From assembly GCA_015065445.1 (NCBI GenBank), contig SVQF01000005.1:1-46270 (forward strand): DNA of 46,270 bases, in the 5' to 3' direction. The notes beneath the pieces were generated by a model. The model searched no databases. It saw nothing but the letters and a program-made list of their open reading frames with translations, and was not told where the DNA came from. Source of the DNA: Oscillospiraceae bacterium (GTDB taxonomy: Bacteria; Bacillota; Clostridia; Oscillospirales; Acutalibacteraceae). Below are positions 9,981 to 15,164 of this stretch, piece after piece. The translations under genes and the position numbers were made by a program. The first letter of the stretch is position 1; the number at the start of each line of letters is the position of its first letter.

Positions 9981-10472
9981 TTAATATCCATCGTCAACAC
10001 GACAACCGGAGAATTCAAAGTCTACAGACTTTAACCGGTTTTTTATTTCATTTTCATTTAATTGCTCTTTTACATAAATATATAAATCGTCGTATTCAAC
10101 TTCGTCTTTATGCATAGGAGCTGTCGGTTCATAATCTAAGCAGCCGTCAAAAAAGTAAATATCATCATCTTTGTAATCATTAACGTTAATACATGCCACC
10201 GAAAAATCTGCAAGACATTTTATTTTGCAGTTAAGTTTTACAAGTTTGTACCCCTTGGGTGTATCGTCAAAACTAAATTCAAGGCAGTTGTATTTTTCAA
10301 AATCCTTTTCAGTAGCAAAGCCTGAATAATTAACTTCAACTTCCAAAAGGCCGTTTTTTGTTGAGGCTAAATTATGGTTTTTGCTACCTGTTAACACAAT
10401 CAAAACGATTGATAAAACTAAGACTAAAATTAGAATAATTGCTAAAAATACGGTAAAAAATGGTTTTTTCAT
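9981..10472 (-). CDS. Single-TM hypothetical protein downstream of Rhs
   Basis: The 163-residue protein has an N-terminal membrane segment (about 6-28, rich in I, L and V) and an acidic, Asp/Tyr-rich extracytoplasmic part with YKDDDIYFFDGC and a C-terminal CRVDDGY. It is not a lipoprotein, since no lipobox Cys is present. I recognise no family. A GAGG site precedes the ATG, and a separate promoter (10515-10543) lies upstream, so it can be made independently of the Rhs gene. AT-rich composition like the Rhs tip suggests it arrived with that cargo. Position and topology make an accessory or immunity role possible, but this is inference. Confidence 0.75.
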   Translation of the reverse strand: MKKPFFTVFLAIILILVLVLSIVLIVLTGSKNHNLASTKNGLLEVEVNYSGFATEKDFEKYNCLEFSFDDTPKGYKLVKLNCKIKCLADFSVACINVNDYKDDDIYFFDGCLDYEPTAPMHKDEVEYDDLYIYVKEQLNENEIKNRLKSVDFEFSGCRVDDGY

Positions 10473-10557: not shown

Positions 10558-11037
10558 CTATGTTTTGAATATTTTATTATAATCTTCAATCGAAACAGTA
10601 GTGATTAAATAATTGTGATTGTCGAGAAAATATGCTGTGCTTTTGTTTTTACAAAAATCTTTTAAGATTATTTTTACACTCTCAGAACTCCCGTCTTTGT
10701 ATGGTACAAAAACTGTTTTTTTATATCTTCCCTTTACAATAATACGCTCACCGCTTTTTTCACTTACAAGGTAAATTTCTTCGTGGTCGCTTGTTACTTC
10801 AGCCTTTTCAAAAATACTGTTTATTAACGAAAATTGCTCATCTCCGTCTTTGTATTTTATACTTTGTTCATCTTCGTTAACAATTGTATATGAAGTAATA
10901 CTATTTGTGTTTATTCTGCCGTAGTTTTCCGTAAAAAAAGCAGAATCATCTGTAGGCTTTATAATCACGAGGCTTGTTATAACAACAACGAGAATTATAG
11001 CGAAATACGGTAGTGCTTTTTTTATTTTGCACCTCAT
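10558..11037 (-). CDS. Single-TM hypothetical protein, candidate Rhs immunity or accessory factor
   Basis: I choose the ATG at 11037, which overlaps the Rhs stop codon (ATGA) and so is translationally coupled; an upstream in-frame ATG at 11055 has no ribosome site. The 159-residue product starts MRCKIKKALPYFA with a TM helix (about 8-27) and an extracytoplasmic domain of mixed charge without cysteine pairs or known motifs. Tight coupling directly after the toxin-like Rhs tip, a membrane anchor and similar AT-rich composition fit an immunity protein that faces the same compartment as the tip. No homology supports this, so it remains a hypothesis. Confidence 0.75.
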   Translation of the reverse strand: MRCKIKKALPYFAIILVVVITSLVIIKPTDDSAFFTENYGRINTNSITSYTIVNEDEQSIKYKDGDEQFSLINSIFEKAEVTSDHEEIYLVSEKSGERIIVKGRYKKTVFVPYKDGSSESVKIILKDFCKNKSTAYFLDNHNYLITTVSIEDYNKIFKT

Positions 11038-14000
11038 TTGAAATCTTTTTCCCATAAATTATAAATATCTACTCTTTCTAATTTATAATAAGCTTTAAAA
11101 TACATCCAATATGTGCAGTAATCTTGAGAGAGATAATACTTAGTCTCAACTCTTGCATAATAACCTTTACTTGATAATGTGTAAGAGACTCCAACCATTA
11201 AAGCATATACAGGAGAATAATATGTTTTTTGAGATAATTTGTAAGCAACACTTTTTTTGATTTCGCCCATACCTCCTCTACAACTGAACAAAAAAACTGA
11301 ACCACTAATTGATTTTTGCTCTAATCTTTTTTCCAATTGAGAAATATTAATACTTTCACCTTGAAAATATAGAGCCCCCATAGTTCCATGTAGATATAGA
11401 TAAATTGAATCAATGTTATTCATGTTGTTCCAAACTTTAACAAATTCATCCACAGTCTTAACATATTTAGCAATTACTTTTTTACTGAAATAGTTATAAT
11501 AATAAGAATTCCTTCCTTGTTTAACAAGCGATTTATTACCATTATAAATAATAGTATATATATATTTATTACGCTTGCTTGTGTTACGATTGAAGCCATT
11601 ATTATCGACATAATTCACTGCATCGTTACAGCAGTAAGCAAAAATGTTAAGACCGATTGGTTCTTCTTTGCTTTGCTGTGCATATTCAGGCAAGTCCGCA
11701 TTGATAAATCTGCAGATGCTTGGGTCGTAGTAGCGTGATTGCAGGTAGTAGTAACCCGTTTCGCTGTCGTAGTAGTAACCACGGTAGCGTAGGGGGTTTG
11801 CATTGAAGGCTGCAACCTCGGCAGTGGTAGCGTTTTCGGCTGTGTACGAGTCCGTAGGGTTGCCCCATTCGTCGTAGTCATACTGACCAATTGCAGTGCC
11901 GTCGCTGTTTGCTAAACCGAACACGTTACCCTGCACGTCTACCATATACAGATACTGCGTGCCGTTATACGTAAAGCCGAGCGGGTGACCTTCTGTATCG
12001 TACTGGAAGGTCAGTGTGTTCGTACCGTCTGACTGTGCCAGTATTACGCCGTTTTTGGTATTGTATTGCGTAGTGGTGCCGTTTACGGTCTTACTCGTTC
12101 TTATGCCGTTTTCGTCATAAGTGTAGCTGTATGTGTTGCTGCCTTTTGTTACCTGTGCAAGGCTTCTGCCTGCCGACCAGGTAAAGCTGCGGTTACCGTA
12201 GGTAAGCACGTTGCCCACATTGTCGTATGTGAGTGCGGTATTGTCAACCGAGGTGAGCTTATCCGTCCAGCCGCTGTTTGCATAAGTAAAGTTTTTTGTG
12301 CTGAGCGGAGTTGCATTTTCAAGACTTCCTGTAGTATAGTTATACGTCTTTTTTGACGTAATATTACCACGGCTGTCGTAAGAATATGCGTATGTAGTGT
12401 CGCCGTATAATCTGTAGTCTTCTCTTACAAGCTGACCTTTTGCGTCGTAGTGGTTAAAGTATTCAATACCGCTGTAACCTTTGCCGGTTATTCTGTCCTT
12501 GCTATCGTACTCATACTGATAATTTACGGTAAGCGGCTGACCGTTATCAAGGCACTGATGATTTTTTTGCCTGATTAAATTGCCGTCGTTGTCGTAAATA
12601 TACTGGTTTGACAGTGCAGTATCGTTGTTGTACTTTATTGCGTCGGCGGTCATCTGGTAGTCGCTGTTTTCGGTATAACTGTACTCAAGCGTAGCGTTGC
12701 CCCTTGTGTATGTTATGCTGTTGCCAACAAGTGCAGATGTTGTTGTAACACCAAAATCGCTTTGCGTTACATCGGTGCGGGCTTCAACTTCGTTTTCTTC
12801 GTCAGCCTCGGTTACCTGCTCGCTGTACGAATGAACAAGAGTATTGTTAGAAGTCTTGTATACTTCAACAGTCTCGCCGTCATACTCATAACGCAAGCCC
12901 GTTTCTGTGTTCACCTTTTCTGTAAGTTCGCCGTCTGTGTTGTATGTGTACGTTACAAACGGCGTACTGCTGCTGTTGTGATACTGATACTTGAGGTTGC
13001 CGTCTGTGTCGTACTCATAACGCTCGGTCTGTCCGTTGGCATACTCTGTTGAAGTTAAGTTGTAGTCTTCGTCATAGTTGTACGATACCGTATTGGTACC
13101 GCTGATATATACTTTTGTTGTTAAACCTTTAACGTTATAGCAGAATTTGTAAATGTCAAATTCTTCAGTTTTCTTTTCGCCGGTTTCAAAATAGGTATAA
13201 ACAGTCTGTACGCCAAGGCGATTTGTTTCGCTTGTCAGGTTGCCTGTGGTGTTGTCATACACATATGTATGACCTGCAGTTGAGTCAGAATAAGTGTTTG
13301 CACTCGGCAAGCCGTCAAGCGAACTGTCGTAATCTTCAGGACCGATTTCCTGCACTACTCTGCCTTGATTATCATACAGCGTTCTGGTACATTCGCCGCC
13401 TTCGTCTGCAAGCAAGGTTCTTCCTGCTGCGTCATAGGTGTATGAAGAATTATCATTGCCTGTTTGTGAAGTCAGCAGATTGCCTAAGCTGTCGTAAGTA
13501 TAATTAGTTACAGTTGTAGTTGTGTTTCCGTTTTCAACGGTTGTTACAGTTTCCTGAGTAACATTACCGACTGAGTCGTACACATAAGCATTTGAGTCGC
13601 CCGTACTGTAAGTCTCCGTCAGTACTCTGCCACTACTATCATAATTATACACTATTGTATCAAAGCAAGTCAATGATGAATTATATTCATTTGGAATTTC
13701 GCCCTCATAATCTTCTTTGAGTGTTGCGGACACGAGCACATTATTGTTGCTGTCATAGGTGTAGTAGCTGTTACTGTCTCCGTACTGTTCGTGAATAACG
13801 TTACCGTTGTTGTCATAAGTATAGGTTACGTCGTAGTCCTCCTCGCCGCCACGAACGGTCATTGAAATCAACTTTCCTGTACCGTCATACGAGTAAGAGG
13901 TCGTTTCGTTTTCTACCGTTTCGGTCAGCACTTGGAATTTGCTGTCGTAAGTGTATGTTGTGGTCGTGCCGTACTCGTCTGTGTAAGAAACGGGAAGAAA

Positions 14001-15164
14001 GGCGTCGTTATATACAGTACAGGTGGTTTCGCCTGATGATGTGAGAGTGGTATACTTCTTTTCGCTGTCCGTATATGTATACTGTACCCACGAGCCGTTA
14101 TCGTTTGTGACTTTCTTTAATCTGCCGTCGGTGTAATACTCTATTGTTTTGTCATTGCTTTTTATAAGCGTATAGTCGTTTGCCGTGCTGACATATTGGT
14201 ATTTCCCAAGCGTTACCCCTGCCTGGTCCTTGACTTGAATATATCTTCCCCATTTGGTTGTGTACTCAATATCGTTGTTATTCGGGTCAGTAATGGTTTT
14301 AACGCTGTAATAGTTTACGTCTGGGTCGTCGGTTGCTTCTACAGCTTCATAGCCAGACACAGCAAAAGTTCTTGTACCGTCACTAATTGAGGCTTCTTCA
14401 ATATTCGTTGTTCTTGTGAGATTAAGAACATTTCCGTTGCTGTCTTCAATTCCGCTGAGATAAGCAACACTGTTTAACCTGATTGCAAAATGATACTTAT
14501 ACTCGCCGTTTTCAAATATATACTCATTGTTTGATTTAGTGAGTGAGTTTCCTGTGAGCTGGTCAACATATGTATTTGTGCCTGTTCTGATTAGAGGATA
14601 CTCTGTGCCGTCAGGCAGATAAACCTTGAGGTAGCTACCAATCGTAGCAACCTTTGAGTGAACAGACTCAAACCAGTTTTTATCGGCACTGTTATATATT
14701 CTGGTATAGCCAAAGTTTATTCCGTTGTATGAAAAATCAAAATCCGTTGTACGTTCAGTATATACGCCGATTGCATGGTCGGTAGTGGTAAAATCGTCAT
14801 ATGTTATTTCGCCGTCATTTCCTATACGTGCATACACTCGTGTTGTCTGATATGCAGGGATTGAAAACGGCGATGTATAATCGGTCCAATCACCGTTTTC
14901 ACCTATTTTGTACTGCAGTGTAGTTGTATCGCTGTAATTTAATCTGTAAAGCCCAACTAATTCACCGTATCTGTAAAACAGCGGTTTTGGTGCCACGGAT
15001 GCCTGTGCAATAATCAAATTACGCAGATTTACATAGTCTGACAGGAACAGGCTACCAAATGTCATTGTTACAAATGTACCAAAAGCAATAATCACTGATA
15101 GCATCAAACTGACTATTTTTTTATATGGTTGGTACCTTAAATTGTTTTTTTTCTTCTGCATCAT
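11034..15164 (-). CDS. Secreted Rhs/YD-repeat protein with variable C-terminal tip
   Basis: The 1376-residue protein has an N-terminal hydrophobic segment (about 18-46) for export, an Ig- or jelly-roll-like region to about 230, and many YD repeats (patterns such as YDxxGNLxxxxY, DSxGN, YTYDSxGR). It then has the Rhs-associated core (SETGYYYLQSRYYDPSICRFINAD...GLNIFAYCCNDAVNYVDNNG, split across about 1125-1190). YD repeats form a shell that encloses a C-terminal effector in polymorphic toxins. The last 186 residues (from 1191) differ sharply in composition and carry a possible protease domain. AAAGGAG precedes the ATG at 15164. A TM-containing gene overlaps its stop codon. Confidence 0.92.
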   Translation of the reverse strand: MMQKKKNNLRYQPYKKIVSLMLSVIIAFGTFVTMTFGSLFLSDYVNLRNLIIAQASVAPKPLFYRYGELVGLYRLNYSDTTTLQYKIGENGDWTDYTSPFSIPAYQTTRVYARIGNDGEITYDDFTTTDHAIGVYTERTTDFDFSYNGINFGYTRIYNSADKNWFESVHSKVATIGSYLKVYLPDGTEYPLIRTGTNTYVDQLTGNSLTKSNNEYIFENGEYKYHFAIRLNSVAYLSGIEDSNGNVLNLTRTTNIEEASISDGTRTFAVSGYEAVEATDDPDVNYYSVKTITDPNNNDIEYTTKWGRYIQVKDQAGVTLGKYQYVSTANDYTLIKSNDKTIEYYTDGRLKKVTNDNGSWVQYTYTDSEKKYTTLTSSGETTCTVYNDAFLPVSYTDEYGTTTTYTYDSKFQVLTETVENETTSYSYDGTGKLISMTVRGGEEDYDVTYTYDNNGNVIHEQYGDSNSYYTYDSNNNVLVSATLKEDYEGEIPNEYNSSLTCFDTIVYNYDSSGRVLTETYSTGDSNAYVYDSVGNVTQETVTTVENGNTTTTVTNYTYDSLGNLLTSQTGNDNSSYTYDAAGRTLLADEGGECTRTLYDNQGRVVQEIGPEDYDSSLDGLPSANTYSDSTAGHTYVYDNTTGNLTSETNRLGVQTVYTYFETGEKKTEEFDIYKFCYNVKGLTTKVYISGTNTVSYNYDEDYNLTSTEYANGQTERYEYDTDGNLKYQYHNSSSTPFVTYTYNTDGELTEKVNTETGLRYEYDGETVEVYKTSNNTLVHSYSEQVTEADEENEVEARTDVTQSDFGVTTTSALVGNSITYTRGNATLEYSYTENSDYQMTADAIKYNNDTALSNQYIYDNDGNLIRQKNHQCLDNGQPLTVNYQYEYDSKDRITGKGYSGIEYFNHYDAKGQLVREDYRLYGDTTYAYSYDSRGNITSKKTYNYTTGSLENATPLSTKNFTYANSGWTDKLTSVDNTALTYDNVGNVLTYGNRSFTWSAGRSLAQVTKGSNTYSYTYDENGIRTSKTVNGTTTQYNTKNGVILAQSDGTNTLTFQYDTEGHPLGFTYNGTQYLYMVDVQGNVFGLANSDGTAIGQYDYDEWGNPTDSYTAENATTAEVAAFNANPLRYRGYYYDSETGYYYLQSRYYDPSICRFINADLPEYAQQSKEEPIGLNIFAYCCNDAVNYVDNNGFNRNTSKRNKYIYTIIYNGNKSLVKQGRNSYYYNYFSKKVIAKYVKTVDEFVKVWNNMNNIDSIYLYLHGTMGALYFQGESINISQLEKRLEQKSISGSVFLFSCRGGMGEIKKSVAYKLSQKTYYSPVYALMVGVSYTLSSKGYYARVETKYYLSQDYCTYWMYFKAYYKLERVDIYNLWEKDFK
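11037..11594 (-). other. Rhs C-terminal tip: caspase/CHAT-like His-Cys domain (putative)
   Basis: Residues 1191-1376 follow the end of the Rhs core. H1259 in IYLYLHGTMG and C1295 in VFLFSCRGG each follow a predicted hydrophobic beta strand, 36 residues apart, with a helix-forming segment (ISQLEKRLEQ) between. This is the strand-HG / helix / strand-SC arrangement of caspase-fold (clan CD, CHAT, DUF4347-like) domains. The DNA here is clearly more AT-rich than the Rhs core, as expected for an exchanged toxin module. The fold is inferred from pattern only. Confidence 0.45.

Follow-up and report, generated by a model that had tools for sequence, protein, structure and literature searches.

Introduction

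Caspase-like domains of polymorphic toxins were catalogued in 2012 as Tox-Caspase by Zhang et al. (PMC3482391), with RHS proteins among the carriers and Firmicutes among the phyla in the part of that catalogue used here. The present analysis concerns an Rhs protein whose C-terminal tip is predicted to be such a domain. It is encoded in a DNA stretch of 46,270 nucleotides from an Oscillospiraceae bacterium of gut type (assembly GCA_015065445.1, contig SVQF01000005.1), the whole of which is called the window below. The evidence is best explained by an exported Rhs toxin that probably carries a caspase-fold protease as its tip, has its antidote encoded next door, and acts, or is caught, outside the cytoplasmic membrane.

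In the same part of PMC3482391, Tox-Caspase is described by a caspase-like fold with an H and a C; its versions are mostly releasing peptidases, likely to be toxins too if they are C-terminal. The examples of caspase domains as processing peptidases or toxins are taken there from Bacteroidetes, Gammaproteobacteria and Actinobacteria, and the immunity families named are Imm36 and Imm57. The nearest studied relative of the tip is Tce1 (PA0256), which, like Tce2, is considered a putative cysteine protease in a 2026 paper (PMC13323088). According to the portion of that paper available to us, Tce2 harms yeast through the active site predicted for it, Tce1, which was poorly made, has no such effect, and E. 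coli is not markedly affected by either of them. This conflicts with a 2021 report, available likewise in part, of PA0256/Tce1 as toxic in E. coli (PMC8262886). Gram-positive WapA/Rhs toxins are dealt with in PMC12704120, also available in part.

The Predicted Caspase Fold of the Tip

The Rhs protein is a 1376-residue open reading frame (11034..15164; all the features located here are on the minus strand), with a hydrophobic N-terminus, YD/RHS repeats, an Rhs core and a C-terminal tip. The match to the Rhs-associated core (TIGR03696, 68.4 bits; 11595..11876) forms the end of the shell and stops at residue 1190, so the tip comprises residues 1191-1376 (11037..11594). The translation confirmed what an earlier note, made from the sequence, had described: a tip of 186 residues with an HG (tip 69-70) and an SC (tip 104-105) following strands, the His and the Cys being 36 residues apart. 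In the AlphaFold2 model, His1259 (tip 69; 11388..11390), the predicted catalytic His, comes directly after strand 61-67, while Cys1295 (tip 105; 11280..11282), the predicted nucleophile, comes directly after strand 100-103.

The model was compared with known structures by VIA-align, as the earlier note had proposed. The 50 matches listed included Tce1, SAVED-CHAT, the cysteine protease domains (CPDs) of toxins, Craspase TPR-CHAT, gingipain RgpB, glycosylphosphatidylinositol transamidase, C11 protease, legumain and caspases. Judging by titles and family knowledge, we take 48 of these 50 to belong to clan CD; the other two were the anti-sigma factor DdvA. Identity to legumain and caspases over the aligned parts was 8–14% in the matches listed.

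Profile comparisons pointed in the same direction. A profile of the tips (A4) run against the Protein Data Bank (PDB) matched Tce1 (9QPE) with an E-value of 1.3e-4, the other rows being taken as unrelated. The His and Cys of the tip lined up with the proposed His186 and Cys240 of Tce1. They also lined up with the catalytic pair of legumain, located by the residue numbering that we presume for that enzyme. The comparison of the tip with DUF4347 by hhalign gave a probability of 93.7, an E-value of 1.9e-7 and a score of 51.7. The reversed profile scored 12.6, and 100 column shuffles reached 21.1 at most, which argues for homology at the profile level. With the Pfam model of DUF4347 (PF14252), the window tip reached 16.8 bits, under the gathering cut-off of 24.6, and the relative L008 cleared it with 28.0 bits. 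DUF4347, which the earlier note had named in comparison, was the right lead. The PF14252 search of the own genome gave no match and that of the controls none either, so it is uninformative. No PDB match was obtained with the single tip sequence. None of the tips matched Pfam C14, and C13 appeared in one relative only (E 0.033). As other identities of the tip, DUF6761, RnlA and SppA were rejected, since their matches were under their own cut-offs, and BovA (PADLOC) was taken as a chance match, with an E-value of 0.0038 on one of twelve rows.

Conservation was studied in an alignment (A2) of the window tip with 11 of the 19 relatives from the family, order and class searches, which are 17–36% identical to it. 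His and Cys occurred in 12/12 rows, and the Gly after His in 11/12 (Ala in L011). A strict HG...C pattern was present in 7/12 rows and in 0/32 complete other Rhs tips. A second motif, FxxxWN (tip 51-56; 11427..11444), lies on helix 48-57 of the model and marks the subfamily, with W55 in 12/12 rows and F51 and N56 in 11/12 each; it was not seen at the equivalent place in eight DUF4347 rows. The eight matches kept out of A2 were weak, partial, unrelated or with stops: L014 ends right after the Cys, L015 is half a domain, L017 and L019 look unrelated, and L005, L018, L020 and L021 have stops within weak matches. As the rows were chosen by likeness to the window tip and 8/19 were dropped, the conservation of the motifs is partly selected for. 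Considering the model and the profiles together, the tip is predicted to be a clan CD (caspase-fold) domain with a His(-Gly)/Cys dyad after two strands, and the caspase-fold reading of the earlier note is well supported.

Exchangeable Tips and Their Carriers

The shell alone (residues 1-1190) was used as a query against 60 genomes of the genus, and matches were found in 30 of them, the source genome counted. In three other genomes (L024, L025 and L026), near-full-length shells with 62–70% identity reached the end of the query, and the sequence that follows differs in appearance from the window tip. Among the four tips, BLASTP at E ≤ 1 detected no similarity. Similar shells with dissimilar tips are the pattern of polymorphic toxins, i.e., a conserved shell with an exchangeable tip. 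The alternative tips of L026 and L024, which stand on a closely similar shell and are not matched by the caspase tip in BLASTP, are also followed by genes with membrane segments. In L003/L039, short frames made of Rhs core plus tip are arranged in tandem with small genes interspersed, an arrangement that resembles a stock of spare tips.

The shell itself was recognized by profile scans (RHS_repeat 2.9e-18, YD_repeat 8.4e-18, Rhs_assc_core 7e-17), and its core match is the only one in the source genome, which is 90% complete. The first 60 residues (14985..15164) have a basic start and then a hydrophobic stretch, with a Kyte-Doolittle maximum of 2.15 at residue 17, and may be an export signal or an anchor. 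The tip is more AT-rich than the shell, as the earlier note had said, with a GC content of 0.271 versus 0.431; that of the next gene is 0.303, that of the second next gene 0.313, and that of the window 0.447.

Relatives of the tip occurred in 5/300 genomes of the family, 3/394 of the order, 14/391 of the class and 3/199 of the phylum, counts that each include the source genome and come from searches differing in query and cut-off. Metagenome assemblies gave five loci (two from Oscillospiraceae, one from Clostridia, two from Bacillota), of which at least three coincide with other loci. L035 was treated as identical in place to L007, L038 to L002 and L039 to L003, and each pair was counted once. 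The Rhs core was over its cut-off in 7/9 carriers scanned, and it was recognized by eye in L002, L003, L007 and L036. The other two carriers are not Rhs proteins and have the caspase-like domain at their end: L016:1-2208 contains choline/glucan-binding repeats, which scored 161 bits over a cut-off of 148, and L088:1-2274 has a choice-of-anchor L match just under its cut-off (26.5 bits versus 27). The reading frame is broken inside the caspase-like domain in L037:2-412 and stops directly after the Cys motif in L014:952-1863. On viral contigs, 156 stretches matched a pattern and none was confirmed; phages gave no relatives of the tip, and plasmids gave one cyanobacterial DUF4347 protein with an E-value of 0.04.

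These data bear on whether the tip is a toxin at all. It is rather unlikely that it is a caspase-fold domain devoid of toxin activity, whether as a tip that has degenerated or as a module for binding: the absence of a DG motif from the window tip and the disrupted relatives L037 and L014 speak for such an inactive domain, while the intact dyad and reading frame, the presence of a linked gene and the retention of His and Cys in tips so divergent speak against it. Another possibility is an auto-processing (releasing) peptidase. Rhs cores self-cleave, the tip is terminal with no toxin domain beyond, and a candidate antidote is tightly linked to it; these points make a releasing role quite improbable, even with auto-processing CPDs among the structure matches listed. 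As far as the part of PMC3482391 used here goes, most versions are indeed releasing peptidases, and these are normally located directly upstream of the toxin. The window tip is better described as a predicted caspase-like domain with which a polymorphic toxin ends at its C-terminus.

The Next Genes as Candidate Immunity Genes

The reading frame that follows the tip (10558..11055) shares 22 bases with that of the Rhs protein and is a candidate immunity gene. Its product, of 165 residues, has one N-terminal membrane segment (hydropathy 2.77) and a further domain, and matched weakly (E 0.004–0.006) in 3/250 genomes besides its own. A second small AT-rich gene (9981..10472, 163 residues), also with an N-terminal membrane segment, had weak matches in 3/250 genomes; it is possibly a second immunity gene or orphan cargo.

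The gene next to each tip was defined as the longest open reading frame of at least 70 codons starting between -30 and +150 from the stop, and a membrane segment as a 19-residue Kyte-Doolittle mean of at least 1.8 near the N-terminus. The disrupted L037 was excluded, and L087 and L088 were found after this test. Next genes with a membrane segment followed 13/13 caspase-like tips and 13/28 other Rhs tips (Fisher one-sided p 5.9e-4); without the non-Rhs L016 they followed 12/12 (p 9.3e-4). The control set had 41 loci, drawn from other genomes than the caspase-like tips; nine were without a complete tip, four without a next gene by the rule, and 28 were scored. As the caspase-like tips are homologous, the 13 loci are not fully independent. 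The segment was single in 11/13 next genes and double in L004 and L008; the next gene of L007 is truncated at the contig end. The next gene of L087, outside the 13-locus count, has a membrane segment too.

BLASTP linked the 13 next proteins (below E 1e-4) only within {L007, L036} and {L011, L012, L013}. This leaves about ten groups with no similarity detected from one to another; remote kinship between them is possible. Pfam, run on ten next proteins, named four, as DUF5050, RCC1, copper amine oxidase N-terminal domain and DUF5301, and it named neither Imm36 nor Imm57 in 11/13 next proteins scanned. The candidate antidotes L009:353-1357, L002:374-1360 and L012:572-1249 have RCC1-like, DUF5050 and copper amine oxidase N-terminal domains.

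The simplest reading of this pattern is that membrane-anchored or exported proteins have been recruited repeatedly as antidotes, and it suggests an encounter with the toxin outside the membrane. The same protease toxin could be active in the cytoplasm of the target, the membrane protein catching it at entry or blocking its uptake. This differs from the preferred explanation in the place of action only, so the two are not strictly exclusive. It would agree with the toxicity of Tce1 made in the cytoplasm of E. coli, as the part of the 2021 report at hand has it (PMC8262886), and with the membrane-segment genes behind 13/28 other Rhs tips. Still, we consider it doubtful, since a target outside the membrane is the simpler fit to a membrane segment in 13/13 next genes, whose products fall into about ten groups with no similarity detected between them.

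Proposed Explanation

The exchangeable tip, the predicted caspase fold, the conserved dyad and the linked membrane-segment gene were computed here, and they can be joined as follows. The tip would serve a polymorphic Rhs toxin as its effector, and the protein would be exported by means of its N-terminus. By analogy with known Rhs biology, the shell would present or enclose the tip, to be released afterwards. The tip, acting as a clan CD cysteine peptidase with the dyad His1259/Cys1295, would cut a protein of a competing bacterium. The overlapping downstream gene would provide the antidote, held on the membrane with its domain outside. Given the 13-locus pattern, the place where the toxin acts, or where it is caught, is most likely the outer face of the cytoplasmic membrane.

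Several observations weigh against this explanation. In the model, the predicted local distance difference test score is under 50 at tip residues 1-6, 151-163 and 180-186, and the window tip has no DG at the consensus A-x-DG motif. The sequence match to legumain is weak (E 0.065–0.18), the next ones being five unrelated sequences at 0.52–2.7; with a wider profile (A5), legumain was not among the matches listed and 9QPE weakened to E 0.005. The next genes of L002 (1.88) and L004 (1.92) are barely over the threshold of 1.8, and the frequency of membrane-segment genes after other tips means that they are not specific to caspase-like ones. Tce1 is toxic in E. coli in one account (PMC8262886) and not markedly so in the other, which, in the portion available to us, also reports no obvious immunity gene and no measurable effect on yeast (PMC13323088).

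A broader proposal, for which we see somewhat less than an even chance, is that of a family of interbacterial caspase-fold proteases acting outside the cytoplasmic membrane, opposed by membrane-anchored or exported inhibitors of many folds. Its modules may be mobile, C-terminal and carried by Rhs, cell-wall-binding-repeat and choice-of-anchor proteins. If true, it would offer matched protease-inhibitor pairs, in which inhibitors of many folds face a single enzyme fold, and a way to envelope proteins whose cutting damages a bacterium. The exported-antidote pattern is the part most worth pursuing.

Comparison with Known Systems

Among the papers listed in the literature searches, judged by titles and the starts of abstracts apart from the passages cited here, no study was recognized of a caspase tip on a Gram-positive Rhs protein, nor of an exported antidote to a caspase tip, a judgement that does not extend to the tips of the WapA/Rhs toxins in PMC12704120. 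The CPDs of TcdB and MARTX are internal auto-processing domains, whereas the window tip is terminal. Legumain (C13) and caspases (C14) have the fold in common with the tip, the His and Cys being aligned in the case of legumain. DUF4347, with Tce1 (PA0256, 9QPE), is the best match in sequence and structure, with equivalent His and Cys; the tip differs from DUF4347 in falling below the Pfam cut-off and in having the FxxxWN motif. Tce1 is an Hcp cargo of a type VI secretion system without an obvious immunity gene, as far as the portion of the source available to us goes (PMC13323088), while the tip is Rhs-carried with a linked downstream gene.

Tox-Caspase resembles the tip in its fold, its H and C, its C-terminal position, its RHS carriers and its occurrence in Firmicutes, a likeness to the description of the 2012 set in the part of PMC3482391 used here. 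The earlier note had expected an unusual toxin class. In view of that entry, the novelty is smaller than it held, the class having been catalogued in 2012, though the examples in that part of the 2012 text are from other phyla. The predicted Rhs caspase tip is a little-studied version of a class that was predicted in 2012, to which the present analysis adds different tips on similar shells, two non-Rhs carriers and the membrane-segment pattern of the next genes.
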